DNA of 64,000 nucleotides from Hoeflea sp. BAL378. GTDB taxonomy: Bacteria > Pseudomonadota > Alphaproteobacteria > Rhizobiales > Rhizobiaceae. Positions 1-59,242 of this stretch are shown here, in pieces. Numbering within the stretch: the stretch's first letter is position 1; each line of letters begins with the position of its first letter. Under the pieces are notes generated by a model, which was given only the letters and a program-made list of their open reading frames with translations, searched no databases and was not told the DNA's origin. Where the stretch lies: contig NZ_JRJG01000003.1 in assembly GCF_000759435.1 (NCBI RefSeq), positions 1 through 64,000 on the forward strand. Reading direction: 5' to 3'. The translations under genes and the position numbers were made by a program.

Positions 1-36
1 GCGGGATACACAATATCACACGCGGCGGAATTCAAG

Positions 37-1104
37 TTACAAGGTGAAGAGGCGCTGCCTGGAGAGCTTCTCGATCGCGGCGAATTCCCTGCTTCTGGCC
101 GATGCCTCGATGAGCGATCCCGAGAACGAGCCCGACATGATCGCATCATAGTTTGCCTTGAAGGCCGCGACACAGGCATCAATGGCCGAGCCGATCGCGC
201 GAGCTCGGGCATAGGCGATGATCTCGTCGGTCGTTCGGTCGGCCAGGTCGACGTTGGGAATGCCGGCGAGCGACTGAAGATGCTTCAGGACGACGTCCTC
301 GGTGAAGTCGCCGGACGCGTAGGCGTCCTCGAGATCGAGGATGTTGTAGCAGATGTCGTCGGCGGCCTCGACGAGGAAGACAAGCGGGTGACGGCGCCAC
401 CAGCGATCCGCGCCGATGGTTTCCACGGGCAGCCCCACCGCTTCGGCGACCTGGGCGAACAGCTCGGCATCGCTCTCAAACACGCCGAATTTCTTGAGCC
501 CGCGATACGGTTGCGTTGCGCTGGCGCGGACTCTGGCGGTCACCGGATACTTCGCGAAGGCGCCGAGCACGCCCATCGAGAGGCGCATGCCGCCCTCGTT
601 CCGGTACATCTCGAGCCTGCTGATGATCCTGAAGCCCTGCGCGTTCCCCTCGAAATCCTGGAATTCCAATCGAAGCGGCGCCTCGATCGCGCCGAACAGT
701 TCGGACGGACCGCGGAAGCGCTCCGCGAACCAGCTTCCGATCGCCGCCTCCCCCGAGTGCCCAAAGGGCGGGTTCCCTATGTCGTGGGCAAGGCACGCTG
801 CCTGGGTCATCCCGGCGACGACGTGTTTTTCGCCTGCGTCGAGTCCGTGCTCTCTTTCGAGCCAATCGCCAACGGCAATGCCTAGGGAGCGGCCCACGCT
901 CGCCGTCTCGACGCTGTGGATAAGTCGATGATGCAGGTGATCGTTTTCGTATAAGGGATGGACTTGCGTCTTGTTGGCCAGACGACGAAAGGGAGCCGAG
1001 AACGTAATTCGATCGGCGTCCTGAATGAAGGTCGGGCGGTCGGGCTTCTCAATGTAATTTGTGTCGCACAAACGCCTGCGGTCGAGGAGGTTTTGCCAAT
1101 CCAC
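37..1104 (-). CDS. dgt: dGTPase-like HD-domain dNTP triphosphohydrolase, C-terminally shortened
   Basis: HD-superfamily enzyme expected to hydrolyse dGTP/dNTP to the nucleoside and triphosphate. Metal-binding motifs are visible: the first His in LIHSVE (about residue 63) and the HD pair in LAHDIGNPPFGHSGE (about 107-108), plus a later acidic stretch VEAADDICYN. The N-terminus (DWQNLLDRRR, FSAPFRRLANKTQV) is typical of the Dgt family. I prefer the GTG at 1104 because GGAG lies 7 bases upstream; a TTG at 1134 would add 10 residues. The 355-residue product stops at RQRLFTL, whereas family members usually run on for roughly another 100 residues, so the C-terminal helical part is missing. It follows the radical SAM gene on the same strand after 105-135 bp, probably one operon. 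It could be housekeeping, but the neighbours suggest an accessory nucleotide-depletion role. Confidence 0.85.
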   Translation of the reverse strand: MDWQNLLDRRRLCDTNYIEKPDRPTFIQDADRITFSAPFRRLANKTQVHPLYENDHLHHRLIHSVETASVGRSLGIAVGDWLEREHGLDAGEKHVVAGMTQAACLAHDIGNPPFGHSGEAAIGSWFAERFRGPSELFGAIEAPLRLEFQDFEGNAQGFRIISRLEMYRNEGGMRLSMGVLGAFAKYPVTARVRASATQPYRGLKKFGVFESDAELFAQVAEAVGLPVETIGADRWWRRHPLVFLVEAADDICYNILDLEDAYASGDFTEDVVLKHLQSLAGIPNVDLADRTTDEIIAYARARAIGSAIDACVAAFKANYDAIMSGSFSGSLIEASARSREFAAIEKLSRQRLFTL

Positions 1105-1239
1105 GGGATTTCTCCAACTATCTGTGCGCCACAACTATCACGTCAGTGGCAGCCAAGGACAGCGGTGTAAACCGCAGATACAGGAATTAGGCCGGGGTGT
1201 ATCGAACACCCGCTGTCGGTCGCGGATATCGCCAGTGGC

Positions 1240-2625
1240 TCACGCGGGCTCCAGGGCGAAGGGCAGCCGGGCTGGATCTGCAGCCGCGAGGTCCCTGTCG
1301 AAATCGGCGCGGGCGTAATCCCTCGGATAGTAGCTGAAGCTCTTGAGGTCGAAATAGGAACTGGTATCCATAAATCGGCGAGAGAGCGAAAGGCTTGCCG
1401 CCTCGGCCTCGTCAGCGTCGAAGTGCTTGCTGAGGTGCATCACCGTGATGCCGGTTGCTTCGGCGCTCGCCGGATCGACCGGCCTGGCCCCGCGGGCGAT
1501 CCAATCACTCAGCAACGGATCAGCCGTCTTAGGCGGCCCGTAGGCGATGACCGGGCCGACGGACACGCCTGCAATCGCCGAAGCGTGGTTGTCAAGCCAT
1601 GCCGTAGTTTCGTCGAGGGTCTTCTGTGTTTCGCCGGCATAGAGCAACACATTCGCTTTGACCCGCACGCCGTGTTTGCGGCAAGCCTCAACGAGGTCAG
1701 CCGCGCGCCTGAGGTACCTGTCGGGATCACGGGACTTCCCCATGGCCAGGATTTGTGCCGGAGAGGCTGTCTCCAGCCCAAGGTCGATGACTTTTAACCC
1801 TCCCTGCGCCAAGGCAGCGACCGATTCCGGTGTCATGGAGTCCACCCGGGTCTCCGTCCGCCAGCCGATTCGGAGTCCCAAGTGCTCGATCGCTGAAGCG
1901 AATCGCTCGCTCCACTGGCGACCGGGCGCGAACATCGACGCCTGAAGGTAGGGGTGAATCTCAGCTCCGCGATACTGCTCCTGGACGAGAGCCATCGACG
2001 CCGCAAGGTCGTCGGGATCACGCAGCTTCTCGAGCGGGATATCGCGCTCCTCGCAGAAGACGCATTTCATGCCGCAACCGCGAGAGGCCTCCACGCTCGG
2101 CTGATACCGCTCGTAGCCGTCCACGAGAAGGTGGTTCAATGTGAACCCGGGTGTCGGTGCCGAGAGCCTGCGAAGGTCGGGGTTCCCGCTCAAAAGGCTT
2201 TCTACGATGGGCTCGCCAAGCCCCTCGACGAGAATGTCGGCTTCCGGCAGCTTGGTCCGCAACCACGCGACATCAGGCCCGACCACCCACCTGCCTCCGA
2301 CAACGATGCGACAGTCGGGGTCCGCCCTCTTTGCGAGGGCGCAAAAGGCCTTGGCCCAGTCGAGGGCGTAGAAGCTCGGGATGGATACCATGAGTGGAAA
2401 GGTTGAAGGCAGCGCCCCCATCGCCACAAGGCGCTCCAATGCCACCTCCGGCGTGTCATGATCCCCATGAAGTAGAAAAGTTTCGTAGCCCTTGAGTTGC
2501 AACATCGTTGTCAACGACAAGGCGCCATAGTTGAGGTACAGTTGTCTGCGGGCGAGGGAATGGTCGCGCTTTTTCGGGGCGGACATACCGGCGGAAACAA
2601 AGACAACAACATTCGATCGAGCCAT
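1240..2625 (-). CDS. B12-binding-domain-type radical SAM protein
   Basis: 461-residue radical SAM enzyme. The N-terminal half (residues about 4-150) looks like the Rossmann-like cobalamin-binding domain that precedes many radical SAM cores (NVVVFVS at the start, IVVGGRWV and LVEGLGE in the middle). The 4Fe-4S cluster motif is C184-x3-C188-x2-C191 in SRGCGMKCVFCEERD. Later strands ETRVDS and DLGLETAS fit the TIM-barrel core. No canonical B12-binding DxHxxG motif is evident, so actual cobalamin use is uncertain. Substrate unknown. It is transcribed away from the thymidylate-kinase-like gene with a 44-bp gap, and towards the dGTPase. That pairing suggests modification of a nucleotide or nucleic-acid substrate, by analogy with viperin-plus-kinase loci, but this is inference only. 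Confidence 0.8.
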   Translation of the reverse strand: MARSNVVVFVSAGMSAPKKRDHSLARRQLYLNYGALSLTTMLQLKGYETFLLHGDHDTPEVALERLVAMGALPSTFPLMVSIPSFYALDWAKAFCALAKRADPDCRIVVGGRWVVGPDVAWLRTKLPEADILVEGLGEPIVESLLSGNPDLRRLSAPTPGFTLNHLLVDGYERYQPSVEASRGCGMKCVFCEERDIPLEKLRDPDDLAASMALVQEQYRGAEIHPYLQASMFAPGRQWSERFASAIEHLGLRIGWRTETRVDSMTPESVAALAQGGLKVIDLGLETASPAQILAMGKSRDPDRYLRRAADLVEACRKHGVRVKANVLLYAGETQKTLDETTAWLDNHASAIAGVSVGPVIAYGPPKTADPLLSDWIARGARPVDPASAEATGITVMHLSKHFDADEAEAASLSLSRRFMDTSSYFDLKSFSYYPRDYARADFDRDLAAADPARLPFALEPA

Positions 2626-2669
2626 GAGCTGCCTTTCTGCGGGGCCGGCTAATGATATAGGAGTTCAAC
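2626..2669. promoter_or_regulatory. Short divergent intergenic region between radical SAM and TMK-like genes
   Basis: Only 44 bp separate the two divergent start codons. On the plus strand AGGAG (2659-2663) precedes a TTG start at 2670, and an AT-rich TAATGATAT stretch lies just before it. On the minus strand AAGG precedes the ATG at 2625. There is too little room for two independent back-to-back promoters, so promoters must overlap the coding regions or be shared. Confidence 0.4.
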
Positions 2670-3281
2670 TTGTCGTTTGTAAGCATTGAGGGAATCGACG
2701 GCAGCGGAAAATCGGTGCAGGTGAAACGTCTTGTTGAACACCTGCGTGCGGAAGGCAGGAATGTCGTGCAAACGAAGGAGCCTGACGGCGGCCGGCTCGG
2801 AAAGGAAATCCGCGCCATCTTGACCCAAGGCGACCGGCAGCTTGAGCGTGTGGAGGAACTGCTATTGGTCAACGCAGCACGGTACGACCACGTCAGGAGC
2901 GTGATTAGCCCGGCCTTGGCCCGCGGAGACTGGGTTGTGTCGGATCGCTACTTCGATTCCACCTACGCACTGCAGGTCTTTGGCGCGGCCGCGGACCTCA
3001 GCCCTCTCCTCGACGCCGTTCTTAGCGCTGTTGTGGGGGACGCCCGCCCGCATGCAACCATCATACTCGACTTGCCACACGACAGGGCGGCGGGGCGCAG
3101 GAAAATCCGGGAAGACGGTGCCGGCGATCCCGCCGAAGACAGGCGGAATTTCGCACAAATTGCAGACGGCTTCCGTTCGGCCGCAACGAACGACCCCGCG
3201 CGCTGTCATCTAGTGAATGCTGACCGCACCGAGGAGGAGGTGGCAGCCGACATTTGGCTGAAAATTTCCACCCTGCTGTAG
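2670..3281 (+). CDS. tmk: Thymidylate kinase-like (d)NMP kinase
   Basis: 203-residue P-loop kinase of the thymidylate kinase family, which phosphorylates dTMP to dTDP. Walker A is GIDGSGKS (residues 8-15), the DR(Y) motif is DRYFDSTYALQ (92-102), and an Arg-rich LID-like segment (RRKIREDG) follows. Length is normal for TMK. The start is TTG at 2670, supported by AGGAG 6 bases upstream and by the family N-terminus SFVSIEG. It sits divergently beside a radical SAM enzyme and near a dGTPase, not in the usual holB/tmk DNA-replication context, so it is probably a second, specialised nucleotide kinase whose substrate may differ from dTMP. Confidence 0.8.
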   Translation: MSFVSIEGIDGSGKSVQVKRLVEHLRAEGRNVVQTKEPDGGRLGKEIRAILTQGDRQLERVEELLLVNAARYDHVRSVISPALARGDWVVSDRYFDSTYALQVFGAAADLSPLLDAVLSAVVGDARPHATIILDLPHDRAAGRRKIREDGAGDPAEDRRNFAQIADGFRSAATNDPARCHLVNADRTEEEVAADIWLKISTLL

Positions 3282-3356
3282 ATCCGGAACGAAGGCCGCG
3301 TCCGTCCACTTCGACAGTGAAACCGGAGGGCGGGCTTTGAAATCCATGATAAAGCC

Positions 3357-3485
3357 ATGGACAACCAGCTTCTCCACCTACTTATTCAAAGACTGATCGA
3401 CGCGATAACGGTCATGGGACCCGGTGCGATCTTCGAACGGTTTGGCACGACCCTGTCGTTCGCTACTGCCGAGACGTCCGTTTAG
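3357..3485 (+). pseudogene. Stump of an unrecognised gene cut off at the IS66 remnant
   Basis: A 42-codon frame starts at ATG 3357 and reads MDNQLLHLLIQRLIDAITVM followed by GPGAIFERFG, an amphipathic N-terminus that looks like a real protein beginning. It then turns into unrelated sequence and stops at 3483-3485, exactly where the truncated IS66 tnpB ends on the other strand. I infer that a larger gene downstream of the kinase was interrupted by IS66. Family not recognised. Confidence 0.4.
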
Positions 3486-3766
3486 CCAAGCTGTGCAGGC
3501 GTGATTACCACCGAGCCATCGGCCGCCGATGGCCAGATGAAGCGCCCGCGTTCAAGCTTCTTGGTGAACAGGCAGGCTCCCTGTCCGTCATGCCAGATGA
3601 CCTTGATCAGGCCACCACCACGCCCGCGGAATACGAACAGGTGTCCGCACATCGGATCGCGCTTCAGCGTCTCCTGCACCATCAGCGACAGGCCGGGAAA
3701 GCCTTTGCGCATGTCGGTATGGCCTGTCGCAAGCCAGACCTTCACACCAACAGGAACCGGGATCAT
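3482..3766 (-). pseudogene. tnpB: IS66 family TnpB (Orf2), 3'-truncated
   Basis: 94 residues matching IS66 TnpB: MIPVPVGVKVWLATGHTDMR at the N-terminus, then KGFPGL, GHLFVFRGRGG and DGQGACLFTKKLERGRFIWP, as in the family. The protein stops at ITPAQLG, about 10-20 residues short of the usual C-terminus, which normally ends near a GIDW motif. The ATG at 3766 overlaps the tnpA stop as ATGA. TnpB is an accessory factor of unknown biochemical role needed for efficient IS66 transposition. Confidence 0.85.
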
Positions 3767-4173
3767 CGCCGACCCAGCACACAATCGAGAATGCGGCCCA
3801 GGGCATCCGTGTCGATGTCACTGTCCACGCGGACACGCCGGCCCCGACCCAGTTCAATCGTCACATCGCTGCGCTTTCGGCGGGAGTGTGATGGACCAGA
3901 CGCTTCTGAGGAAATCGGTTGGGCTACTGACGCTGCTTCGGACACGATCACAGGCACCAGCGTGCTCGCCGCTTGTGTCCTCGGCTCCGCTATCTGGCAA
4001 AGCTCCTTGCGCCAACGGAAGAGCTGACTGACATGGATGCCGGCCGCCCGCGCAATCTCGGAAAGCACGGCTCCAGGCTCAAGGCAGGCCGCAACAAGCC
4101 GTTCCTTCTCTTCACGGGACCAGCGCCGACGGCGCTCCACAGAGGTTATGATTTCAATCGGACGCTTCGTCAT
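3763..4173 (-). CDS. tnpA: IS66 family TnpA (Orf1), helix-turn-helix accessory protein
   Basis: 136 residues. The N-terminal helix-turn-helix region (SREEKERLVAACLEPGAVLS, then EIARAAGIHVSQLFRWRKEL) is characteristic of IS66/IS3-type Orf1, and the C-terminal RVRVDSDIDTDALGRILDCV is the usual IS66 TnpA tail. It overlaps tnpB by four bases. The frame is intact but the rest of the element is broken. Its upstream side carries a perfect hairpin at 4182-4201. Confidence 0.85.
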   Translation of the reverse strand: MTKRPIEIITSVERRRRWSREEKERLVAACLEPGAVLSEIARAAGIHVSQLFRWRKELCQIAEPRTQAASTLVPVIVSEAASVAQPISSEASGPSHSRRKRSDVTIELGRGRRVRVDSDIDTDALGRILDCVLGRR

Positions 4174-4700: not shown

Positions 4701-6035
4701 CTATCGACTTACGGAGATTTGCGCCGCGTACCACGCGGAGACGGCTTGTATCTGTTCTTGCGTCATGTTCTCGGCGATCTCTGCCATGACGTGCGAATAT
4801 TGAGTGCCCCCGCGCGTTCCTTCCTTCCAGAGATGAAGGTGCTCCGAGAGGTACCATTCCGGCTGACCGGAGAGATAGGGATAATACGGGTTTCGGGCGC
4901 GGCCGGCTGCGCTGTGGCAGCTCTGACAGGCTGGAAGCTTGCGGGAGGCGATGCCCTCCAGTGCGATGCCCCGCCCGAGCTCCAGAAGTTCATCCCGGCT
5001 GGCCGGAGGCCCCGCAGCCGCTGCCATCGGCACCGCGCTTCCCCCGGCATCGCCTTCGCCCTCGAGCACCCCCGCCTCGTCCTGCCGGCTTTGGGCGGGG
5101 ATGACCAGCGTTTCGACCGCATCCGGTGGGGCGGATGCGGGCGCGTCGTCGCTGGTGTCGAAACCTGCCGGTCCGAGAGCAGCCACGCCTTCGTCTCCGG
5201 AACCAGGGGGCGCTGGTTGCGCTGCAAAGTAGCGCGCGAGTTCGGCGAGCACCTCGGTCTCGTAGCGGGTCGCGGGCGGTTCCATGTAACCGCTCTGGCG
5301 GTCGCCGCGCGCAAAGGCGAGCAGGGTGGCGTAGAGATAGGGCGCGGGTTGGCCGGCGATCACCGGAAAGGCGTGGCGGGCTTCGCCCTCTCCGCGGCCC
5401 AGCCCGTCGCGACCGTGGCAGCGGGCGCAATCGGTGAGTGCGCTGTCGATGATGCCGTCGAGTGCGGGCATCGTTTCACCGCCCGCTTCGAGTTCTTCGT
5501 CAGCCAATCCGCTGCCCAGCGCGAGGTCCGCATATTCGGCCCGGGACATGTCGGGAAGGGCCCGAAGAAAGGCCACCTGCGCCCAGACCTCGTCCTTGCG
5601 GTCCTGCGCCGGCCAGGCCGGCATCCCCGAATACTTGATGCCGTTCCTGACGATCCAGAACAGCTCCTCGTCGCTCCATTCCGCAACCTTCTCCTCGAGG
5701 CGCGGCGGCGAGGGCACCATCTCCTCGACCACCGGTGATTGCGGCACGCCGGGGGCGCCGTGGCAGGACGCGCAGCCGGTCGCGTAATGCCCGGCCGCGC
5801 GACGCACCAGCATCGGGTCGTCGAGGTCGATCACCTCGGGCTTCGAGATCAGCATCGATTGTGTTCTGACAGCATTCTCCATCGTCCAGCCAAGGAACCA
5901 TTGTGTCACCGACCAATGCCCGGCCGAGGCAGCGATCGAAACCAGGCCTATCCAGCCGACCATCAGCGCGCCCGTCACGCCAAGCACGGCGAGGCCGGCG
6001 AGCCTCTTCCAGGTGATGACGACGTTCAGATGCAT
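4701..6035 (-). CDS. Triheme c-type cytochrome
   Basis: 444-residue exported electron-transfer protein. An N-terminal membrane anchor or uncleaved signal (LAGLAVLGVTGALMVGWIGL, about residues 12-31) is followed by three heme c sites: CASCH (88-92), CARCH (203-207) and CQSCH (370-374). Candidate Met ligands include SGMPAW. A low-complexity Ala/Pro/Glu linker (about 275-345) separates the second and third domains. It is the last gene of the caa3-oxidase operon, 28 bp after a small membrane protein, so a role as electron donor to or subunit of that oxidase is likely. The third domain resembles the cytochrome c553/c4 type. The C-terminus reaches the stop normally. Confidence 0.88.
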   Translation of the reverse strand: MHLNVVITWKRLAGLAVLGVTGALMVGWIGLVSIAASAGHWSVTQWFLGWTMENAVRTQSMLISKPEVIDLDDPMLVRRAAGHYATGCASCHGAPGVPQSPVVEEMVPSPPRLEEKVAEWSDEELFWIVRNGIKYSGMPAWPAQDRKDEVWAQVAFLRALPDMSRAEYADLALGSGLADEELEAGGETMPALDGIIDSALTDCARCHGRDGLGRGEGEARHAFPVIAGQPAPYLYATLLAFARGDRQSGYMEPPATRYETEVLAELARYFAAQPAPPGSGDEGVAALGPAGFDTSDDAPASAPPDAVETLVIPAQSRQDEAGVLEGEGDAGGSAVPMAAAAGPPASRDELLELGRGIALEGIASRKLPACQSCHSAAGRARNPYYPYLSGQPEWYLSEHLHLWKEGTRGGTQYSHVMAEIAENMTQEQIQAVSAWYAAQISVSR

Positions 6036-6063
6036 GGTACCCTCCCGGGCGGTCGCGCGCGCA

Positions 6064-6441
6064 TTACCGGCAGTCCCAGAAAACGAGGACCGGCAGCGTC
6101 TCGAAGACCACCGCGGCGAACGAGAGCGCGGCGAGAAGCAGCGTCGAGAATTCCAGGAAGCGCTCGCGCGCCTCAGGCGTGTCCTGGTTGTTGCTGTAGC
6201 CGCCGCCGTCGGCGCGCCATTCGCGCCAGGCGCGGCGGGCTATCAGCAGGATCAGCAGCAGGCAGACCGCGGTGACTCCGGCGATCGCCGCGCGCGTGCC
6301 GCCGATGGTGTTGAAAATATCATCATTCGGCGCACACCGGTAAGCCGCCAGGAAATAGCTGAACAGGAAATGGAAGCCCCAGATGGTCGGCGCGGCGACC
6401 AGGGTCCAGAGGTTGTCTTGCGTCTTGCCGAATACCTGCAT
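6064..6441 (-). CDS. Small membrane protein of the caa3 oxidase operon
   Basis: 125 residues with three hydrophobic segments (LVAAPTIWGFHFLFSYFLAA, AAIAGVTAVCLLLILLIA, LLAALSFAAVVFETLPVLVF). WGFHFLFSYFLAA near the N-terminus is conserved in short proteins that commonly follow fused cox genes in proteobacteria. The start is 9 bp after the stop of the fused subunit I-III gene and the gene is followed closely by a cytochrome c. It is probably an oxidase subunit or assembly protein, analogous to subunit IV, but no named family can be assigned from sequence alone. Confidence 0.65.
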   Translation of the reverse strand: MQVFGKTQDNLWTLVAAPTIWGFHFLFSYFLAAYRCAPNDDIFNTIGGTRAAIAGVTAVCLLLILLIARRAWREWRADGGGYSNNQDTPEARERFLEFSTLLLAALSFAAVVFETLPVLVFWDCR

Positions 6442-6450
6442 GTATCGCCC

Positions 6451-8997
6451 TCACATCAGAACGGGGAGATAGGCGAGCGTCCCCACTGTGACGATCACCG
6501 TGAGCCCGACGAAGTGCCAGTAAAGTGCGACATTGAAGATATCGATGTCGTGTGCTGGCGTCATCCGCCCCGCCAGCGAGCGGGCGAGGCAGTATCCAAG
6601 CATGAGACTTCCCGCGACGCCGTGCGCGGCGGTCCAGATGGTGATCACCCAGACCGTCGCCGGATAGACGTGTGCCGTGGGGCGGAGACCCGTGACATAT
6701 GGTCCCCAGAGGAGCGCCGCACTGGCGGCGAGGGCAACGAGCGCGCCTGCCGCCATGAGCACCCGGGCGCGTCCGATGCGGCCTGCCTGGTTCGAAAGCC
6801 GTGCGCCGAAGGCCGTCGCCCAGGCGACCGCGAAAAGGCCGAAAGCGACGGTGGGCCAGAGCACGCCGGGGCCGACCGTTGACGGCGGCGGGAAATCCGC
6901 GTGGATAGTGAAGAAGTAGTAATAGCCGAAGACCAGTCCGAGGAATGCGGTTGCGTCGCCCATCATCATGATGAACATGGCCCACCAGCCGACGGAATGC
7001 GGCCCGGACTTGTAGAGCGGCAGCTTCAGGCCGAGGCCAACGTCCTTCTCCGGCTTCTCCGGGATCACGGCGGTGCCGCGCCAGAGCCAGACCATGATCG
7101 AGATCGTCGACAGCCCCATCGCGACGATCGTCGCAGCCCACCAGTGGAAGGTCGCGAAGATGAACATCGCTCCGGTGAAGACCGCGGCGATCATCGGCAT
7201 GAAGCTTGGTCCCGGCACGCGCAGGCATTGCAGCGGCTTGCCGTCGAGGACCGAGGTGATGATCGTCTCGCGCTTCATCTCCGCGGCGTCGGAAAGGTAG
7301 AACCTGCCGTTGTCGACGTCATCGATGAAGTTCGGCTGCTCCCAGATCGGATAGCGCGAGGTGACGGCCGGAATGGAGCGGACGCCCCAGCTCTCGCCGG
7401 GCATCTCGACCAGCCATTCCAGCGTGCCAGCGTTCCAGGGATTGCGTTTCGCGTAGGGCTCGTTGCCGCGCGGGCGCAGCACGTCCCAGACGATGATCAG
7501 GATCCCGGCGGCAAAGACAAAGGCGCCGACGCTCGAGATCATGTTGGCGGTGCCGACGCCGAGACTTTCCGGATAGGTCCAGACGCGCCGGGGCATGCCG
7601 GCAAGGCCGGAGTAGTGCATCGGCAGGAAAGCGAGGTTGAAGCCGGCGAACATCATCCAGAAGGCGATGCGCCCGAGCCTGTCGGAAAGCTTCCGGCCGC
7701 TGACCAGTGGCCAGTAGTAATAGACGCCTGCGGCGACCGGAAACAGCATGCCGCCGATCAGGACGTAGTGCAGGTGCGCCACGACGAAATAAGTGTCGTG
7801 CGCCTGCCAGTCGAACGGCGCGAGCGCCACCATGACGCCGGTAAGCCCGCCGATCACGAAGTTGGCGAGCGCCCCGGACACGAACAGCATCGGCACCGAG
7901 TGGATCACCCGACCGGTCAGAAGCGTCGCGATGAAGACGAAGATCTGCACGCCCGTCGGGATCGCCACCGCTTCGGACGCAGCCGAGAAGAAGCCGAGCG
8001 AGATCGAGGGCAGTCCCGTGGTGTACATGTGATGCACCCACAGGCCGAACGAGATGAAGCCGGTGCCGACTGCGGCGAGCACGATCCAGGAATAGCCGAG
8101 GATCGGCCTTTGCGCAAAGGTCGGCACGATCATGGCGACAAGCGCGATCGCCGGCAGGAATACGATGTAGACCTCCGGATGGCCAAAGATCCAGAACAGG
8201 TGCTGCCACAGGACTGGATCGCCGCCGCGACTGGGGTCGAAGAACGGCCAGTCGAACAACCGTTCGAGTTCGAACAGGATGTCGCCGGCGATCAGGGGCG
8301 GAAAGGCGAACAGGATCATGCCCGCGACGACCAGCACATACCAGGCGTAAAGCGGCATCAGGTTGAGCCGCATTCCCGGCGGCCGGCATTTCAGAGTTCC
8401 GACGATCAGTTCGACCGCCGCGGCGAGGGAGGCGACCTCGATGAACGACAGGCCGAGCAGCCAGATGTCGGGTCCGTAGCCAGGTGTGAATTCCTCCTCC
8501 GTTGTCAGCGGCGGATACATGAACCAGCCCGAACTCGGCGCCTGGCCGAAGAAGATCGAGCCCATGACGAAAACGCCGCCGATTAGGAAGCACCAGAACC
8601 CGAAAGCCGAAAGCCGCGGGAATGGCAGGTCGCGTGCGCCGAGCAACTGCGGCAGCAGGATGATCGCAACCGCCTCGAAGATCGGCACTGCGAAGAGAAA
8701 CATCATCGCCGTGCCATGCAGCGTGAACGCCTGGTTGTAGAAGTCGGGCGTGACGAGGTCGTTCTCCGGCACCGCCAGTTGCGCCCGTACGATGAGCGCC
8801 AGCACGCCCGCAGACAGCATGAAGATGAAGGACAGCGCGGTGTACCAGATGCCGACTTCGGTATTGTTGACGGCCGACCAGTAGCGCCAGCCTTTCGGCG
8901 CCGCCCAGACCTCGCGCAGCCGGGCCTCCTGCGCGCGACGGACCGCTTCGTCATCCTGATCGGGTCCAGTCGGTGTTCGGTCCGTGGTGTCGGTCAT
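6451..8997 (-). CDS. ctaD: Cytochrome c oxidase, fused subunits I and III
   Basis: 848-residue fusion. The first about 600 residues are heme-copper oxidase subunit I: LHGTAMMFLF (heme a His), GHPEVYIVFLPA (CuB His, D-channel Glu and cross-linked Tyr, so A1-type), WVHHMYTTG (CuB His pair) and AHLHYVLIGG (heme ligands). The remaining about 200 residues carry subunit III helices, e.g. GWWAMFIMMMGDATAFLGLV and YWHFVGLTVIVTV. It reduces O2 to water and pumps protons in the inner membrane. The ATG at 8997 overlaps the subunit II stop (ATGA), so I choose it over an in-frame start 18 bases upstream. Fused CoxI-III is known in caa3-type enzymes. Confidence 0.95.
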   Translation of the reverse strand: MTDTTDRTPTGPDQDDEAVRRAQEARLREVWAAPKGWRYWSAVNNTEVGIWYTALSFIFMLSAGVLALIVRAQLAVPENDLVTPDFYNQAFTLHGTAMMFLFAVPIFEAVAIILLPQLLGARDLPFPRLSAFGFWCFLIGGVFVMGSIFFGQAPSSGWFMYPPLTTEEEFTPGYGPDIWLLGLSFIEVASLAAAVELIVGTLKCRPPGMRLNLMPLYAWYVLVVAGMILFAFPPLIAGDILFELERLFDWPFFDPSRGGDPVLWQHLFWIFGHPEVYIVFLPAIALVAMIVPTFAQRPILGYSWIVLAAVGTGFISFGLWVHHMYTTGLPSISLGFFSAASEAVAIPTGVQIFVFIATLLTGRVIHSVPMLFVSGALANFVIGGLTGVMVALAPFDWQAHDTYFVVAHLHYVLIGGMLFPVAAGVYYYWPLVSGRKLSDRLGRIAFWMMFAGFNLAFLPMHYSGLAGMPRRVWTYPESLGVGTANMISSVGAFVFAAGILIIVWDVLRPRGNEPYAKRNPWNAGTLEWLVEMPGESWGVRSIPAVTSRYPIWEQPNFIDDVDNGRFYLSDAAEMKRETIITSVLDGKPLQCLRVPGPSFMPMIAAVFTGAMFIFATFHWWAATIVAMGLSTISIMVWLWRGTAVIPEKPEKDVGLGLKLPLYKSGPHSVGWWAMFIMMMGDATAFLGLVFGYYYFFTIHADFPPPSTVGPGVLWPTVAFGLFAVAWATAFGARLSNQAGRIGRARVLMAAGALVALAASAALLWGPYVTGLRPTAHVYPATVWVITIWTAAHGVAGSLMLGYCLARSLAGRMTPAHDIDIFNVALYWHFVGLTVIVTVGTLAYLPVLM

Positions 8998-9989
8998 TCG
9001 AGCTTCCCCAGCCATTGCGCGATTGCGGTGATCTCCTCCTCGGGGAGTATTCCGAAGGCCGGCATCTCCACGCCCGGCTTGATGTGCTCGGCCGAGCGGA
9101 TGAACGCCGCGAAATTTTCCACGGTTGTAGGAAGCAGGCCCGCGGCGATTGTGCGCCGGCTCGCCACATGGGTCAGGTCGGGTCCGACGTCACCGTCCGC
9201 GGCGGTGCCGCGCACGGTATGGCAGGCGGCGCAGCCGTTCTGCACGAACAGTCTGGCGCCGGAGCCGTCGGTTGTCGCGGCGGGGAGCGCCTGCGACGCG
9301 ACATAGGCTTCGAACTCCGCCTCGGGCACCACGACGACGCGGAATCCCATATAGGTGTGAGCCGTTCCGCAGTACTCGGCGCAGGCGCCATTGAAGACGC
9401 CGGGTCTGGTGGGCTCCAGCACCAGACGGTTCACCCGGCCGGGTATGGCATCCATCTTCCCAGCCAGCGGCGGCACCCAGAAGGAGTGGATGACGTCGGG
9501 GCTGCTCAACAGGATCTCGGTGCGCTTGCCGAGCGGAATCCAGATCTCGTTCGCGCTCGGGACGCCGCCACGCGGCAGGTTGCGGATAACGCCGGGCTCG
9601 CCCTCGACGGCATAGGCCACCCGCCACCAGAACCGTTCTGCGGAGACGGCGATGGTGGGTCCGTCAGCTGCGCGCCGCAGTTCCGGCATCATCGTCAGAC
9701 CCCACCAGAGCAGCCCCGCCAGGACCACGGCCGGAAAGACGCAGCCGCCCCAGACGATCAGCCGAATGCCGGATCTGTCCGAATAGGGCCCCGACTTCCC
9801 CCTGGCGGCATAGTAGCTGACGCCGATCACGACGATCCAGATGGCGGTGCCGCCGGCCAGCATGATCCAGAACAGGGTGAGCACGCGCTCCGCCTCGACT
9901 CCCGCCGGATCGAAGGCGGACTGCGCGCCCTGGCAGCCGGTAAGCACGGCACCCGAAAGTCCTGCCGCAATGGTCCCGGGTCGCGTCAT
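8994..9989 (-). CDS. ctaC: Cytochrome c oxidase subunit II with C-terminal cytochrome c domain (caa3 type)
   Basis: 331 residues. The N-terminus has a lipobox-like LTGC (Cys19), suggesting lipoprotein anchoring, then two membrane helices (about 38-60 and 76-98). The CuA site is complete: His168 (DVIHSFW), Cys203, Cys207, His211 and Met214 in CAEYCGTAHTYMGF. A fused cytochrome c domain follows with CAACH (253-257) and a distal Met in MPAFG. Electrons therefore enter through the covalently attached heme c, typical of caa3 oxidases. It overlaps both neighbours by four bases (ctaG upstream, fused ctaD-E downstream), indicating strict translational coupling. Confidence 0.95.
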   Translation of the reverse strand: MTRPGTIAAGLSGAVLTGCQGAQSAFDPAGVEAERVLTLFWIMLAGGTAIWIVVIGVSYYAARGKSGPYSDRSGIRLIVWGGCVFPAVVLAGLLWWGLTMMPELRRAADGPTIAVSAERFWWRVAYAVEGEPGVIRNLPRGGVPSANEIWIPLGKRTEILLSSPDVIHSFWVPPLAGKMDAIPGRVNRLVLEPTRPGVFNGACAEYCGTAHTYMGFRVVVVPEAEFEAYVASQALPAATTDGSGARLFVQNGCAACHTVRGTAADGDVGPDLTHVASRRTIAAGLLPTTVENFAAFIRSAEHIKPGVEMPAFGILPEEEITAIAQWLGKLE

Positions 9990-10921
9990 CGGGGGAGGCC
10001 CTCACACTGCGGCATCAAGCTGGTGGCGACGCGCCTTTCCGGGGAGCGGAGCAGAACAGCTACCCGGATGACCAGGGCCAGCAGATACATCATTGACTGG
10101 ACAACCATCATCAGGACGCCCGCAAGTTGCTGATCTTCCAAAAGAGTGACGCCCCAGGGGAGGCCGCGATCCAGGTAGCTTTCGTAAAAGGCACGTGAGG
10201 AGAAGGCAAGCAGTGCACCCAGGACGAGCGAGAACTTGAAGTTCACAAACAGAGCCAGGATCGCCGATCCGAACTCGTCGCTTCGCATGCGCAGAATGGC
10301 CGTCCAGAACAGAAGTCCTGCGGCGAGCATCGAGCCGTGCATCAGCCAGTGCACGAAATCATTTTCGAGCGACAGCGCGATCGCCGCCGGAATGTGCCAC
10401 AAAGTGAATACGAGCAGTTGCAGAATGGTTGCGACATCAATGCGGGTCACGAATTCCCAGAACCTGCGCCACGGCTGCCAGCGGACCGCAAGCGCCAGCC
10501 CGCGTTGCCATTCTCTCGGCAGGGACCGGATCATTGTCGGCATCGGAAGACCCAGCACGAGGAGTGGTGCGGCCATCCCCATCAGCACGATGCGCTGCGC
10601 CATGTGGGCGGAAAAGAGGCTTTCGCCAATGGCGTCGAGCGGCCAGACGAGACCTGCCCAGAGTGTGGTCAGCCCGAGCGCAAAAAGCCCCGCCCGCCAC
10701 GCCGCCGTGCCGCGGCCGAAACCGGCGCGGCTCCAGGCGAGGCGCAGACCACGTCCGTAGAGCAACGCCGCGATCGCGATGGGCACCACGACGCTCGGCT
10801 GCAGCGACCATGCGGTCCAGAAGTCGTGTGGCGATATCGGTGTACCCTCGGTATGGGCGCCAGCGCTGGAGGCGACCATGGCCGCAACGCAGAAGCCGAC
10901 AGTGAGCCAAGCTCCCGGCAC
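9986..10921 (-). CDS. ctaG: CtaG-family cytochrome c oxidase assembly protein (caa3_CtaG)
   Basis: Polytopic membrane protein of the Caa3_CtaG family (about seven helices), required for assembly of caa3 oxidase, probably at the CuB/CuA maturation step. Recognisable motifs are HMAQRIVLMGMAAPLLVLG, ALVIRVAVLLRS at the C-terminus and many conserved His/Met in helices. The frame is open to 11053, but I place the start at GTG 10921 because it gives a clean signal-like segment (AWLTVGFCVAAMVASSAGAH) and the upstream residues look like non-coding Arg/Gly-rich translation and overlap the next gene. The start is moderately certain. The stop overlaps the subunit II start by four bases. Confidence 0.85.
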   Translation of the reverse strand: MPGAWLTVGFCVAAMVASSAGAHTEGTPISPHDFWTAWSLQPSVVVPIAIAALLYGRGLRLAWSRAGFGRGTAAWRAGLFALGLTTLWAGLVWPLDAIGESLFSAHMAQRIVLMGMAAPLLVLGLPMPTMIRSLPREWQRGLALAVRWQPWRRFWEFVTRIDVATILQLLVFTLWHIPAAIALSLENDFVHWLMHGSMLAAGLLFWTAILRMRSDEFGSAILALFVNFKFSLVLGALLAFSSRAFYESYLDRGLPWGVTLLEDQQLAGVLMMVVQSMMYLLALVIRVAVLLRSPERRVATSLMPQCEGLPR

Positions 10922-11034
10922 ATGCCCGCGTGCACAAAGTCGCGAGGCTGCGTCTGCCCCGGACAGGAGACGGATTGCCGCACGGCCTGCGCGGTCACGC
11001 AAACCGCGGGCAGGGCAGGGGGGTGGCGATCCGG

Positions 11035-11397
11035 TCACACCCCGCCCGCCCATTCCGCAGCCGCGTCCAGCGCGCTTGCTTCGAACCAGCGCATCTCGGC
11101 ATGGGTCAAGGCCTTAGCGAGGGTGGTTCCCCAGTGCTGCCACGCCGCCTCGCCGACAACGGCGATGCGGGAGAAATCGTTTCGATGGGCGGTGTCCATC
11201 TTGAAGTCTTCTCGCATTGCAGCGAGGCCCGTGTACCCTTGGAAATTCGTCAGATCGACCACGAGGCCGGGCTCTTCTACAGATGCAAGTCGCTCGTGCA
11301 GCAACGCGTGCATCTGCTCAAGCTCGCTTTCGCTGAGCTTGCCCTCGCAGGCGATTCCGATGACGTCGTCACGATTTATCCGGGTCTCGGTGAACAT
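11035..11397 (-). CDS. SpoIIAA-like (STAS-type) protein
   Basis: 120 residues of the SpoIIAA-like/DUF3478 family, a STAS-related fold of unknown biochemical role often found near metal or stress genes. Visible features are IGIACEGKLSESELEQMHAL, LVVDLTNFQGY, the conserved middle AAMREDFKMDTAHRNDFSRI and AVVGE. ATG 11397 is preferred over more upstream starts because the family begins close to this point; it overlaps the end of the CDF gene by 29 bases. It is sandwiched between metal transporters and the oxidase operon. Confidence 0.75.
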   Translation of the reverse strand: MFTETRINRDDVIGIACEGKLSESELEQMHALLHERLASVEEPGLVVDLTNFQGYTGLAAMREDFKMDTAHRNDFSRIAVVGEAAWQHWGTTLAKALTHAEMRWFEASALDAAAEWAGGV

Positions 11398-22895: not shown

Positions 22896-24104
22896 ATGCC
22901 CAACAATGTACCCGACCATATGCGCGCCAAGGGGACCGCGTTGGAACTGTCGCGGCCGATCTCCTCAGCTGGGGAGACCGCATTTCCGATTGACCCGTCT
23001 CGTCGCGCTTTGCTTATCGGTGGCTTTGCCACTGCCAGCGGCGCCGCCATAATGGCAAGTGGCGCAAAGTCGCAGACCGTGCCCAACCCAATGGAAGGGC
23101 ACGACATGTCGGCCATGCAAGCTGATCCCTATGCTGCGCCGATGCCGGGCATGGCCCACGGCAACATGACGATGGTTGGCTTGGTTGATCACGCCAAAAA
23201 CGGCTTCGACCCGACCGCAATGCTGACAGACTGGGAGACGGGGCGGACTGAATTTCTACCCGATGGCCGGACGTTGCGCACTTTCGAAGTCGACGCCATC
23301 GATAGGGAAATAGAAATCGCCCCCGGGATTTTCTTCCCCGCGTGGACCTTCAATGGCCGCGTTCCGGGTCCAGCCCTGAGGGCAAAAGAAGGCGAACGGT
23401 TGCGAATCATTTTCCGCAACTTTGGCTCACATCCCCATTCCATGCATTTTCACGGCATCCATTCGGCGCGGATGGACGGGGTTCCCGGCGCCGGATTGAT
23501 CGGGCCCGGCGAGGAATTCATCTACGAGTTCGACGCCAAGCCATTCGGTTGTCACCTCTATCATTGCCACGCGTTGCCACTGAAGCGGCACATGCACAAA
23601 GGCATGTATGGCCTGTTCGTCATCGATCCTGACCCGGCCTTGCACCCCGAGCATGCGGCAGTGGCCGCCTCTCGCCTGCTCGGAAGCCCCGAGAATGCCG
23701 AATGGCAGGAGATGGCGATGGTGATGAATGCCTTCGACACCAATTTTGACGGCGGCAACGAGGTCTATGCCTGCAATACCGTGGGCCAAGCCTATATGAA
23801 CACGCCGATCCGCATCGACAAGTCGCGCCCGATCCGAATCTACCTCCTGAATGTAACGGAATTCGACCCGATCAACTCCTTCCATCTGCACGCGAATTTC
23901 TTTGACTATTACGACACAGGAACCACCCTGACGCCGGCCCAGCGCACAGTCGATGTGATCATGCAGTGCCAGGCGCAGCGTGGAATCCTGGAGTTCAGTT
24001 TCGCCGAGCACGAACCCGGCATGTACATGTTTCATGCACATCAGTCCGAGTTCACCGAACTGGGCTGGATCGGCATGTTCGACGTACAGGAGCCTGCAGC
24101 ATGA
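22896..24104 (+). CDS. Multicopper oxidase
   Basis: 402 residues. The Tat-type segment PSRRALLIGGFATASGAAIM begins about residue 35 and is followed by a Met/His-rich stretch (MEGHDMSAM, MPGMAHGNMTM). The cupredoxin domains carry the four copper-binding His motifs: HSMHFHG, CHLYHCHALPL, FHLHANF and MFHAHQSEF. Type 1/trinuclear ligands are therefore present, though the last motif lacks the usual HCHIxxHxxxG(M/L) form. Likely a periplasmic metal or cuprous oxidase. The stop overlaps the start of a ZIP transporter (ATGA), suggesting that oxidation and uptake of the same metal are coupled. Confidence 0.85.
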   Translation: MPNNVPDHMRAKGTALELSRPISSAGETAFPIDPSRRALLIGGFATASGAAIMASGAKSQTVPNPMEGHDMSAMQADPYAAPMPGMAHGNMTMVGLVDHAKNGFDPTAMLTDWETGRTEFLPDGRTLRTFEVDAIDREIEIAPGIFFPAWTFNGRVPGPALRAKEGERLRIIFRNFGSHPHSMHFHGIHSARMDGVPGAGLIGPGEEFIYEFDAKPFGCHLYHCHALPLKRHMHKGMYGLFVIDPDPALHPEHAAVAASRLLGSPENAEWQEMAMVMNAFDTNFDGGNEVYACNTVGQAYMNTPIRIDKSRPIRIYLLNVTEFDPINSFHLHANFFDYYDTGTTLTPAQRTVDVIMQCQAQRGILEFSFAEHEPGMYMFHAHQSEFTELGWIGMFDVQEPAA

Positions 24105-45564: not shown

Positions 45565-48120
45565 ATGACGGATGAAAGCAGGCCTGTCGTCATTGTTACT
45601 GGGTCAAGCGGATTTCTTGGTTCCGCAGTGGTGCGCCGGTTGCACCGAACCTATCGCGTCGTCGGACTTGACCGGTATGCGCCGCCGCATCCCCCACATC
45701 AGGCCGAATGCGTCTGTTTCGACATCACCGATCAGGTAAGTGTCGATATCGCGCTTGAACGCGTGCGATTTGCGTATGGCGACAGGATAGCCGCCTGCGT
45801 TCACCTCGCGGGCTATTTCGATCTCAGCGGCGAGGATGATCCCGCATATGATGCCGTCACGGTGGAGGGTTCGAAACGGCTGCTGAAGGGGCTTCAGGCG
45901 TTCGAGCTGGAACAGTTCATCTTCGCGTCCACCATGCTTGCACATGCGCCGACCGAGCCAGGCGAGCCGATAGACGAGAATCATCCTCTCGATCCCAAGT
46001 TTCCTTACCGCGCGTCGAAGGTGCGCACGGAGAAGGTATTGCGCGAGGAGCGGGGCGAGGAGAAACTCGTGCTGATGCGCCCTGCGGGCATCTACGATGA
46101 CAAGGGGCAGTCGACATTTCTGACCCACCAGATCGCCCGCATTCACGAACGACGGTTCAGCGGTAAGGTCTATCCCGGTGATCTGTCGCGCGGGCAGGCC
46201 TTCCTGCATCTCGATGATTTTCTCGACGCCGTGGAACGCATCGTCGACCGCCGCGCCAATCTGCCGGACGTCTTTCCGGTGCTTTTGGGCGAGGCCGACC
46301 CGATTCGGTTCGGAGAGTTGCAGCGCCTGATCGGGCGCGAGCTACATGACGAGGACTGGGTCACCTGGAATGTGCCACCACAGCTGGCCAAGCTGGGCGC
46401 ATGGACGGAGAACAGGATTTTTGGCGAGGACGCCTTTATCCGGGCATGGATGGTCGATATTTCCAGCGATCACTATGAGCTCGATCTTTCGGCGGCGAAA
46501 AAGCACCTGGATTGGAAGCCTGAGCACAGTCTGCGCGACGACATGCCGGGAATTCTTCAGCGCCTGAAGGTCGATCCCTACGGGTGGTACGAAGCGAACG
46601 GATTGAACGCCGCCCGGGTTTCGGCGGCCAAGGTCGAGAACGCCGCGGCGGAAGAGGCTGCCAAGAAGGCGCCGTCCGAGGCCGAAGCGAACGAGGACAG
46701 GCGTAAGCACGACGCGCATATGCGAAAGATGCATTTCTCGATGCTTTGGGTGCATTGGCTCGTCATGGCCCTGGGCCTCTGGCTTGCCACCGCGCCATCT
46801 GTTTTCGGCACCTTCGATCAGACCGAGTTCAGCGCTGCGGTCCAGCGGGTGACGGCGGATCGCGGGCTATGGCCTGCCGCGACCCGAAGCTGGCTGACCG
46901 CGTGGAACGATGTCTTTACCGGGCTTGCCATCATGGTCTTTGCCGGCCTTTCTCTGCGCCCCGGCAATGGCTGGGCACAATGGGCGAATGCAGCATTGGG
47001 GGTCTGGTTGCTGGCGGCGCCGCTGGTGTTTTGGACGCCGGATGCGGCCGTCTATGCAAACGACACGCTGATCGGCGCACTTGTCATCGCCTTGACAATC
47101 CTGATCCCCATGATGCCTGGCATGTCGCGCGGGGGGATGATGGATGACTCCGACATTCCGCCCGGCTGGACCTATTGCCCTTCCACATATGTCCAGCGCC
47201 TGCCGATCATCGCGCTGGGTGTCGTAGGCTTTCTCCTGTCGCGTATCCTGTCTGCCTACCAGCTCGGCCACATCGATGGCGTCTGGGAACCGTTCTTTTC
47301 GTCCCCCTCGTCGCTCAATGGCACTGAATACATCATCACCTCGGATGTCTCGAAAGCTTGGCCCATTGCAGATGGCGGCCTTGGTGCCATGAGCTACATG
47401 TTCGAAATATTGATGGGCGTGATGGGCAGCCGTCGGCGGTGGCGCACGATGCCTTGGATGGTTGCACTGTTCGGGATTGTGGTCGGGCCGCTCGGCGTCG
47501 TCAGCATCTATTTCATCATCATACAGCCGATTGCGATCGGTACCTATTGCACGATCTGCCTGATGGCGGCACTGGCGATGCTGATCATGATCCCGTTCTC
47601 GCTCGATGAGATTGTCGCGATGGTGCAGTTCATGGTTTGGAACACGCGCCGGGGCAGGCCGTTCTGGCGCGCGTTCTTCAGGGGTGATTCTCTGCCCGGT
47701 GGTTCGACCGGCGGCGAAATGAGCTTCGACGCGCCACCTATGCAGATCCTGCGGCAAAGCGCAGTCGGCGTCACCGTACCATGGACACTTGGGCTGAGTG
47801 CTGCAATCGGTGCCTTCCTGATGCTGGCGTCTCGCTCGGTCTTTGGTAATGAAGCGGCAATGGCAAACAGCGACCACCTGCTGGGTGCATTGGTCCTGAC
47901 CACCGCCGTCATCGCCTGGGCCGAGGTGGCACGCCCGCTGCGATTCTTGAACGTCATTTTTGGGCTATGGCTGGTAGTCGCACCGCTGCTGCTAAGCGGC
48001 AGTACGGTGGCCGGCAGCTTCTTTGGGATTGCAGCGGGGATTTCACTGGTGGCACTGAGCCTGCCCCGAGGACGCCGCAGCAAAGAGCATTATGGAAGCT
48101 GGGACAGATATATCCTCTAA
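45565..48120 (+). CDS. SDR epimerase - SPW repeat - VKOR multidomain fusion protein
   Basis: 851 residues. Residues about 1-330 are an extended SDR/NAD-dependent epimerase: VTGSSGFLGSAV (GxxGxxG) and catalytic YRASK. A charged linker (about 345-390) leads to SPW-type membrane repeats (MLWVHWLVMALGLWLATAPS), then a VKOR-like four-helix domain with the redox pair CTIC in YCTICLMAALAM, then a second SPW-like block near the C-terminus. This suggests a membrane enzyme linking NAD(P)-dependent chemistry to quinone/thiol redox. Substrate unknown. Confidence 0.85.
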   Translation: MTDESRPVVIVTGSSGFLGSAVVRRLHRTYRVVGLDRYAPPHPPHQAECVCFDITDQVSVDIALERVRFAYGDRIAACVHLAGYFDLSGEDDPAYDAVTVEGSKRLLKGLQAFELEQFIFASTMLAHAPTEPGEPIDENHPLDPKFPYRASKVRTEKVLREERGEEKLVLMRPAGIYDDKGQSTFLTHQIARIHERRFSGKVYPGDLSRGQAFLHLDDFLDAVERIVDRRANLPDVFPVLLGEADPIRFGELQRLIGRELHDEDWVTWNVPPQLAKLGAWTENRIFGEDAFIRAWMVDISSDHYELDLSAAKKHLDWKPEHSLRDDMPGILQRLKVDPYGWYEANGLNAARVSAAKVENAAAEEAAKKAPSEAEANEDRRKHDAHMRKMHFSMLWVHWLVMALGLWLATAPSVFGTFDQTEFSAAVQRVTADRGLWPAATRSWLTAWNDVFTGLAIMVFAGLSLRPGNGWAQWANAALGVWLLAAPLVFWTPDAAVYANDTLIGALVIALTILIPMMPGMSRGGMMDDSDIPPGWTYCPSTYVQRLPIIALGVVGFLLSRILSAYQLGHIDGVWEPFFSSPSSLNGTEYIITSDVSKAWPIADGGLGAMSYMFEILMGVMGSRRRWRTMPWMVALFGIVVGPLGVVSIYFIIIQPIAIGTYCTICLMAALAMLIMIPFSLDEIVAMVQFMVWNTRRGRPFWRAFFRGDSLPGGSTGGEMSFDAPPMQILRQSAVGVTVPWTLGLSAAIGAFLMLASRSVFGNEAAMANSDHLLGALVLTTAVIAWAEVARPLRFLNVIFGLWLVVAPLLLSGSTVAGSFFGIAAGISLVALSLPRGRRSKEHYGSWDRYIL

Positions 48121-59000: not shown

Positions 59001-59242
59001 CGAAGATGATGACTGTCGTTGCCATCATGGCAGGCCTGGTTCCAATTCTATGGAGCCATGGCACCGGATCGGAAATCATGCAGCGCATTGCCGTGCCGAT
59101 GATCGGCGGAATGGTGTCATCGACCATCCTGACACTGGTTGTCATCCCGGCAATTTATGCCCTGGTGAAGGGGTTCGGGCTCGAGCGCGCCCTGTCCCTG
59201 AACGGCGCACGAAAGCCGCAATCAGGTGTTCTGTCGACTTAG
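56078..59242 (+). CDS. cusA: CusA/CzcA-type heavy-metal RND efflux pump
   Basis: 1054 residues, 12 helices. N-terminal RND start (IRWSAGNLGLVLILTVIASA), GGIAIAIGAMIDAAIVMIEN with the conserved Asp in helix 4, and GFIALAGVAAETGVIMLIYL in the C-terminal half. Periplasmic Met-rich segments (e.g. EIMQRIAVPMIGGM) fit Cu(I)/Ag(I) export. Overlaps cusB by four bases and ends convergently with the LysR gene. Confidence 0.95.
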   Translation: MIARLIRWSAGNLGLVLILTVIASAVGVYAVTRVPLDAIPDLSDTQVIIYTEYTGQAPQVIEDQVTYPLSTAMLSVPKSKVVRGFSFFGVSFVYVIFEEGTDIYWARSRVLEYLSAVTRSLPQGVVPSLGPDATGVGWVYQYAVMAKQRTLAELRTTQDWQIRFAVAKAEGVAEVASVGGFVRQYSIVVDPRRLRTFDLTLADIRTAVRQSNMDVGGRVVELAETEFMVRGRGYLRGIDDLEQIVLRAEAGTSVLLKDVARVELAPDERRGIAELDGEGEVVSGIAIQRYGQNALDVIANIKDRLADISTSLPLGTEIVPVYDRSLLIERAIETLKATLIEESLIVALVCFIFLLHLRSALVAIVTLPLGILIAYTCMWALGISSNIMSLGGIAIAIGAMIDAAIVMIENAHKHLERAPEGKPRTEVLMEAASEVGPSLFFSLLIITVSFLPIFALEAQEGLMFKPLAWTKTFAMAAAALLSVLVVPALMVLFVRGRIVPEHRNPVNRLLIWLYRPIIAAVLRAKTLTVMVAISVLAVSVWPATKIGSEFMPSLNEGTIMYMPTTLPGLSITKSAELLQTQNRIIKTFPEVESVFGKAGRAMTATDPAPTEMFETVINLKPESQWRPGVTIDSLIQEMDRALQFPGVSNAWTMPIKARIDMLATGIRTPVGVKVIGQDLVEIEKLARQIEAAIKTVPGTSSAFAERINGGYYLDIEPDRRELARYGLSIADVQEVVASAIGAETVTTTVEGRERYAVSIRYPRDLRSDPQAIAREVLVPLAGGASIPLGQIAKVSLVRGPGSIRTENAQLAAYIFVDARERDLGSYVADAKKAVAQSVDFPPGYYAIWSGQFEFYERAKKRLAIVVPLTLLLILLLLYLNFRRITETLIVMLSLPFALVGGLWLMWWMGFNLSVAVAVGFIALAGVAAETGVIMLIYLDHALDARKALALKECRQLDKSDIAAAIMEGAVERVRPKMMTVVAIMAGLVPILWSHGTGSEIMQRIAVPMIGGMVSSTILTLVVIPAIYALVKGFGLERALSLNGARKPQSGVLST

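Follow-up and report, generated by a model that had tools for sequence, protein, structure and literature searches.

A possible anti-phage module of a B12-class radical SAM enzyme and a thymidylate-kinase-like protein, present as a decayed copy in Hoeflea sp. BAL378

Introduction

What does a radical S-adenosylmethionine (rSAM) enzyme do between a kinase that resembles thymidylate kinase (TMK) and a dGTPase? The question is raised by the first genes of a 64,000-nucleotide stretch of Hoeflea sp. BAL378 (contig NZ_JRJG01000003.1, positions 1 to 64,000, hereafter the window), where an intact gene for an rSAM enzyme of 461 amino acids (1240..2625, minus strand) and an intact gene for a TMK-like protein of 203 amino acids (2670..3281, plus strand) are transcribed divergently across an intergenic gap of 44 bp (2626..2669, no strand). 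A truncated Dgt-type dGTPase gene (37..1134, minus strand) lies behind the rSAM gene. A first-pass annotation had singled out these three genes as an undescribed nucleotide-based system, possibly antiviral, and the positions it gave for them were confirmed. Our reading, proposed tentatively and at just under an even chance, is that a mobile anti-phage module has decayed here and that its core, a B12-class rSAM enzyme and a specialised TMK-like kinase, would make a modified deoxynucleoside di- or triphosphate.

The set is only partly new. A distant rSAM and TMK candidate pair was known beforehand as PDC-M51 in PADLOC, where PDC stands for phage defence candidate. Literature searches for PDC-M51 and for the set of rSAM, TMK and dGTPase yielded no paper, some candidate papers not being excluded. 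The literature match for radical SAM, thymidylate kinase and anti-phage was a paper on a jumbo phage, and PMC10853773 is about Dnd systems.

Results

Relatives of the window rSAM were collected by tblastn across 72,556 plasmid records (15 weaker records were left unused) and by a scan of genome collections, which gave 41 loci. Thirty-three of these (L012-L044) were used, and eight with weak or short matches (L045-L052) stand outside all counts. Overall, 40 loci were examined, namely the window and L006-L044; 28 are called close, with an rSAM identity of about 52% or more, and five of these 28 are plasmid records. One close locus (L010) was counted in spite of being a near copy of L009, so that the 28 amount to about 27 independent loci. 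We observed a divergent TMK gene at 39-132 bp from the rSAM gene, measured between tblastn match ends, in all 28 close loci, and in none of the remaining 12, where rSAM identity is 42% or less. The close relatives on plasmids (five, 61-93% identity) come from Rhizobium, Sphingomonas, Pseudomonas and Burkholderia, and were accompanied by a Nostoc relative at 27%. Starting from the kinase, 109 plasmid records had a TMK match; the five with at least 50% identity are the five that carry the rSAM gene, and the next match among those listed stood at 39.8%. Across 27 loci, rSAM divergence and TMK divergence rise together (r 0.87, a value that none of 5000 permutations attained, with relatedness uncontrolled). 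The presence of a divergent TMK in all 28 close loci places the pairing far above chance, and the association is real and mobile. It is also rare, as the window's own genome is alone in carrying the module among 289 genomes of its class and 398 of its phylum. No relative was found by tblastn in phage records, nor in viral contigs. In a fold search of viral predicted structures, 12 entries matched within an E-value limit of 0.001, and B12-class-like phage proteins with 13% identity ranked highest among them.

The kinases of these loci differ from ordinary TMKs in defined positions. The window kinase passes TIGR00041 (dTMP kinase) with 132.7 bits for a cut-off of 83.25, and its loops read KEPDGG and ALQV, compared to REPGG and AYQG in 28 ordinary TMKs. 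The latter come from the window's class alone, the 28 system TMKs from several classes; 30 control loci had been fetched, and two (L059 and L070) were dropped with their motif unmatched. Residues R71, D92, R93 and Q102 are kept in both sets alike. By contrast, REPGG has become KEPDG in the system TMKs, with R36 changed to K in 27 of the 28 and G39 to D in 26, and AYQG has become A[F/L]QV, with Y101 changed in 27 and G103 turned to V in 27; none of the 28 ordinary TMKs has any of these changes. The residue after GK[ST] is a threonine in every ordinary TMK and in three system TMKs (3/28). The loss of an aromatic residue at V67 was considered as a further diagnostic and rejected, this position being variable among the 28 ordinary TMKs. 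On these residues the system TMKs are a distinct subfamily, and an altered nucleotide substrate is likely, since the changed positions lie in what we take, from TMK structures, to be the nucleotide-binding loops.

The rSAM enzyme matches the Radical_SAM domain (2.6e-11) and carries the cluster motif CX3CX2C, whose cysteines C184, C188 and C191 are invariant across 38 aligned rSAM proteins. Its AlphaFold model (mean pLDDT 94.1) aligned with B12-class enzymes over residues 4-461, that is over its full length. The top fold match was AprD4 (Z 26.1, 386 residues aligned, 3.3 Å), followed by MgmA (Z 24.6, 357 residues, 3.7 Å), OxsB (Z 24.3, 404 residues, 4.2 Å) and TsrM (Z 23.0, 408 residues, 4.1 Å). 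A profile search of PDB sequences also placed AprD4 first (1.8e-5). The fold of the window rSAM is shared with cobalamin enzymes and also with AprD4, which is not known to contain cobalamin. Viperins aligned with the core alone, at residues 170-431 approximately and Z 12-13 (mouse viperin: Z 12.5, 215 residues, 3.8 Å). Judged by the predicted fold, the window rSAM is a B12-class enzyme and not a viperin, as had been said of it at first pass.

Around this constant core, the third gene varies. An HD-domain deoxynucleoside triphosphatase (HD dNTPase), a STAND NTPase or both were present in 26 of the 28 close loci. The HD gene, seen behind rSAM in 13 of them, is SAMHD1-like in ten and Dgt-type in three. 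Nine of the SAMHD1-like genes lie on the rSAM strand at 72-145 bp, the tenth (L028) on the opposite strand at 870 bp; the Dgt-type genes, in the window, L006 and L012, follow at 138-172 bp. Thus two HD enzymes of different families occupy one slot. The co-occurrence of the rSAM gene with kinase and dGTPase genes in other genomes, on which the first-pass annotation had staked its proposal, is therefore found, completely for the kinase and in 13/28 loci for the HD enzymes. The SAMHD1-like partner has a match to PDB entry 2o6i with an E-value of 1.8e-44, and its matches to SAMHD1 chains lie near 1e-17. The window dGTPase passes TIGR01353 (269 bits, cut-off 152.35; 310.8 for the intact L006 protein) and reaches 6e-41 and 140.9 bits against NF041026, "antiphage_dGTPase", below the cut-off of 400.

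A STAND gene lies behind the TMK gene in 16 of the 28 close loci; the L020 gene is split, and that of L022 runs into the contig end. In addition to these 16, the window has a remnant of one. HD and STAND genes occur together in L012, L023 and L025, and neither was present in L015 and L031; L014 and L015 end just past the TMK gene, where a STAND gene is not judgeable. The STAND protein has about 900 amino acids, with an NB-ARC-like ATPase core and C-terminal TPR repeats. For the L012 protein, whose model is fair (pLDDT 75), the three top Foldseek matches were a STAND-TPR protein, Avs3 and Avs4, with low TM-scores. VIA-align placed Apaf-1 on residues 152-455 (Z 13.9) and a plant NB-ARC domain on residues 182-454 (Z 13.8); its best 50 matches, mostly TPR proteins, included no Avs row. 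The N-terminus holds a conserved motif, GG..D....DG...(V)E.S, which together with predicted strands suggests a nuclease-like domain. No PADLOC model was matched by the three STAND members scanned.

A quick-mode tree of 38 rSAM proteins, several outer rows of which have long branches, gathered the TMK-bearing proteins in one clade of 27 rows. The SAMHD1-like gene appears in the early-branching L028 and L030 and in a group of eight rows. The window, L006 and L012 group together, and their Dgt gene occupies that slot. A group of 13 rows lacks the HD gene and has the STAND gene in 12, the thirteenth being L015, which ends just past the TMK gene. The tree requires four changes in HD presence and five in STAND presence (with the window scored as STAND); given the long outer branches, it gives no more than a lead on the order of events.

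The setting of these loci was analyzed by a PADLOC scan at 1e-10, covering 98 of the 144 neighbours from 26 loci (the window and L010 were excluded) and 98 of the 100 proteins of a control, taken from 20 arbitrary regions in other genomes of the window's class and unmatched for plasmids or islands. The candidate neighbours matched 169 models compared to five in the control; these are models and not proteins, many models can match one protein, and L017, L019 and L034 share neighbouring genes. Among the matches listed (the first 25 of the 169), LmuB of Lamassu was found in four proteins and GajA of Gabija in two. The control matches were generic: mad2 in three proteins, ShosA, PsyrA and DpdF. 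In addition, a gene annotated as 7-cyano-7-deazaguanine synthase lies close to the module in L006; such a gene is part of Qat systems. We hold a role of the module in defence to be probable.

The window copy itself has decayed: rSAM and TMK are intact, both partners are cut, and the module there is probably no longer complete. The dGTPase gene is listed with 365 codons, and the start used by the homologous Rhizobium WL3 protein corresponds to about window position 1104. The window protein tracks that of WL3 up to residue 354 out of 443, where it ends. The missing 89 residues were found on another contig (G000:C12:43137-43403), 37 bases from its end, and are 89% identical to WL3, so that the gene is split between the window's contig (C3) and C12. 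On the window's side of the break, the contig start (position 1) and the following bases (1..40, minus strand) form a mobile-element-like sequence that breaks into the gene. These 40 bases recur at C123:12350-12389 and C196:4520-4559, 0-4 bases from the ends of those contigs, as would be expected of a mobile element. On the C12 side of the break, the 37 bases occur once. At the other end, a stump behind the TMK gene (3357..3485, plus strand, with homology across 3357-3455) starts MDNQLLHLLIQRLIDAITVMGPGAIFERFG. By eye, 25 of 30 residues agree with the start of the STAND protein of Shinella L012, and the stump matches the Pseudomonas L008 STAND protein with 48% identity (E 1.5e-4). It is abutted by IS66 TnpB and HTH_Tnp_1 transposase genes (3482..4173, minus strand), and its sequence identifies it as the beginning of a STAND NTPase gene that IS66 debris has interrupted. 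The dGTPase of the first-pass annotation thus held as to type, the gene being truncated; its gene stump and IS66 debris were seen again, and the identity of the stump as a STAND partner had gone unrecognised.

The window genes are extra copies and not the sole housekeeping ones, since the same genome encodes a second TMK (C197, 34% identity) and, on C48, a second dGTPase-like gene (39% over residues 30-163). For the window genes, dN/dS was 0.06-0.15 against L006 and L012 and, against L006, 0.07 for rSAM, 0.14 for TMK and 0.06 for the remaining part of the dGTPase. This is purifying selection, mostly predating the breaks.

Beyond the close loci, several distant rSAM relatives adjoin other nucleotide genes. 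In L040 (38% identity, start cut off), a dGTPase passing NF002205 begins 32 bp after the rSAM gene. In three clostridial loci with 31-33% identity (L038:8634-9988, L039:8635-9987 and L042:8775-12281), pairs of dCTP-deaminase-family genes adjoin it; of the L038 pair, one passes TIGR02274 and the other resembles it weakly, and L042 also has a TMK-like gene and a broken rSAM frame. In three Nostoc loci (L011, L043 and L044; 25%), a P-loop gene resembling nucleoside monophosphate (NMP) kinases lies just upstream, and its protein matches the PADLOC dCTPase model at 6e-12. In L033 (Bacteroidales, 41%), a gene some 2 kb downstream of rSAM encodes a fusion of a SAMHD1-like domain with PRTase-CE (L033:6165-9167).

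Other genes of the window were noted in their own right. Genes for cytochrome c and CtaG-type oxidase assembly adjoin the module (4701-11053, minus strand), and a multicopper oxidase gene follows further on (22896-24104, plus strand). An unusual fusion frame of 851 amino acids (45565-48120, plus strand) combines an NAD-dependent epimerase domain, an SPW repeat and a VKOR domain, and a full-length gene for an AcrB-type RND efflux transporter lies at 56078-59242 (plus strand).

Discussion

Nucleotide modification is the best reading of the chemistry, and we hold it with moderate confidence. The pair would most probably make a modified deoxynucleotide, in the manner of viperin/CMPK2 and OxsB. The sequences show the gene set and its recurrence, also on plasmids, the defence neighbours, the altered TMK loops and the loss of two partners in this genome; from there on, substrate, product and anti-phage effect are inferred. 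The rSAM enzyme would attack the sugar or the base of a deoxynucleotide, and the kinase would phosphorylate the altered monophosphate or supply the substrate. The modified di- or triphosphate would then accumulate and stop the phage from copying its DNA. The HD dNTPase encoded next to rSAM could clear competing normal dNTPs or trim the product, a place that the STAND protein might fill in another branch. The first-pass suggestion of an antiviral nucleotide system is in line with the defence setting and the mobile recurrence; the antiviral activity and the nucleotide chemistry are putative, and the dGTPase on which it leaned is broken.

Several observations weigh against the modified-nucleotide module. 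The B12-binding domain of the window rSAM is sub-threshold (4.4e-5, 23.7 bits for a Pfam cut-off of 32.1). AprD4, its best match in structure and in sequence, acts on an aminoglycoside sugar and not on a nucleotide, and OxsB is absent from its profile matches in PDB sequences at E up to 1. OxsA, by listed names, is likewise absent among the matches of the SAMHD1-like protein. Since 13 of the 28 close loci have a STAND gene and lack an HD gene, the module can do without dNTP hydrolysis. Neither partner is present in L031, whose TMK retains most of the ordinary loop residues. Finally, four distant loci (L035, L036, L037 and L041) gave no match to the TMK, HD or STAND queries, and L036 and L041 adjoin housekeeping-looking genes.

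In an alternative that we consider unlikely but worth weighing, the product of rSAM and kinase is not a poison but a messenger or a brake for interchangeable HD dNTPase and STAND effectors. A core whose third gene changes between loci (HD alone, STAND alone or the two together) and the NB-ARC-like ATPase core of the STAND protein speak for it, as does Clover, whose dGTPase effector, according to PMC12265719, is activated by dTTP and shut off by a made nucleotide. The loci that have both HD and STAND genes show that the partners are not strict alternatives.

An improbable alternative is a nucleoside natural-product locus of the oxetanocin or albucidin kind, whose product would be exported against competitors, with kinase and HD enzyme as self-protection. 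The pairing of a B12-class rSAM enzyme with an HD phosphohydrolase is that of OxsB and OxsA, and the OxsB fold match agrees with it. However, the clustered neighbourhoods contain no recurrent transporter gene next to the core, and STAND genes in 16/28 loci together with defence neighbours suit immunity better. Incorporation of a modified deoxynucleotide into host DNA as a self label is highly improbable: rSAM and a kinase of the deoxynucleoside monophosphate (dNMP) type would make a plausible precursor pathway, and the Nostoc relatives adjoin a DNA methyltransferase and helicases (L011:341-14844), but the neighbour clusters include no recurrent polymerase or DNA-level reader, and the loci are rare.

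If the proposed modified-nucleotide module is real, it would provide a second, structurally distinct class of antiviral rSAM enzyme, tied to a dNMP-type kinase and dNTPases. Bacterial antiviral deoxynucleotide analogues or signals would follow, with testable chemistry and possible drug leads, and the exchange of dNTPase and STAND genes around one core would show immune modules swapping their killing part. A bolder form of the proposal, possible in our view and still doubtful, makes the module a bacterial counterpart of viperin/CMPK2, in which a B12-class rSAM enzyme acting on deoxynucleotides would yield a new DNA-directed antiviral nucleotide (a chain terminator or a messenger), served by exchangeable effectors, either a SAMHD1-like or Dgt dNTPase or a STAND protein.

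Comparison with known systems

The closest known system is PDC-M51 (A, rSAM; B, TMK-like), which shares the pair of a B12-type rSAM enzyme and a TMK-like kinase. The window kinase matches M51B (1.2e-12, 46 bits, model positions 1-140 of 191). The window rSAM matches M51A weakly (5.1e-4, 17 bits), compared to 567 bits for a strong member in genome G483 and 2.8e-8 for the Nostoc rSAM. Window and G483 proteins are 21% (rSAM) and 27% (TMK) identical. In G483, the one member seen, which may not define the family, the two genes overlap on the same strand, whereas they are divergent here in 28/28 close loci; among the matches listed for its 19 kb, none to HD or STAND was better than about 1e-5.

Viperin, the best-known antiviral rSAM enzyme, acts on ribonucleotides. 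Viperin (RSAD2) with CMPK2 and the prokaryotic viperins resemble the module in their antiviral context and in an rSAM gene whose neighbour, a nucleotide kinase gene, points the other way. Viperins are antiviral rSAM enzymes with a nucleotide kinase neighbour (PMC10058120, PMC12889620), and the human CMPK2 nucleotide kinase gene adjoins the viperin gene in inverted orientation (PMC10058120). The module differs in the class of its rSAM enzyme and in partners predicted to act on deoxynucleotides.

OxsB and OxsA share with it the B12-class rSAM fold and an HD phosphohydrolase partner; according to PMC13331322, OxsB catalyses a sugar-ring contraction on dAMP, dADP and dATP, with the HD enzyme OxsA as its partner. 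However, OxsB has about 730 residues in PDB chains compared to 461 here and is not a sequence-profile match, the HD partners of the module are of the Dgt or SAMHD1 type, and the TMK and STAND genes are extra.

With the anti-phage dGTPases and Clover (CloA/CloB), the module shares a Dgt-type dGTPase as the likely effector. Its partners are an rSAM enzyme and a TMK; a nucleotidyltransferase was not seen among them, though no search with CloB was made, and the window dGTPase is broken. Finally, the antiviral STAND ATPases of the Avs type have the same plan of an NB-ARC-like ATPase core and a repeat C-terminus, from which the STAND protein of the module is set apart by its length of about 900 amino acids, its TPR repeats and an N-terminus that, from its motif, may be nuclease-like.

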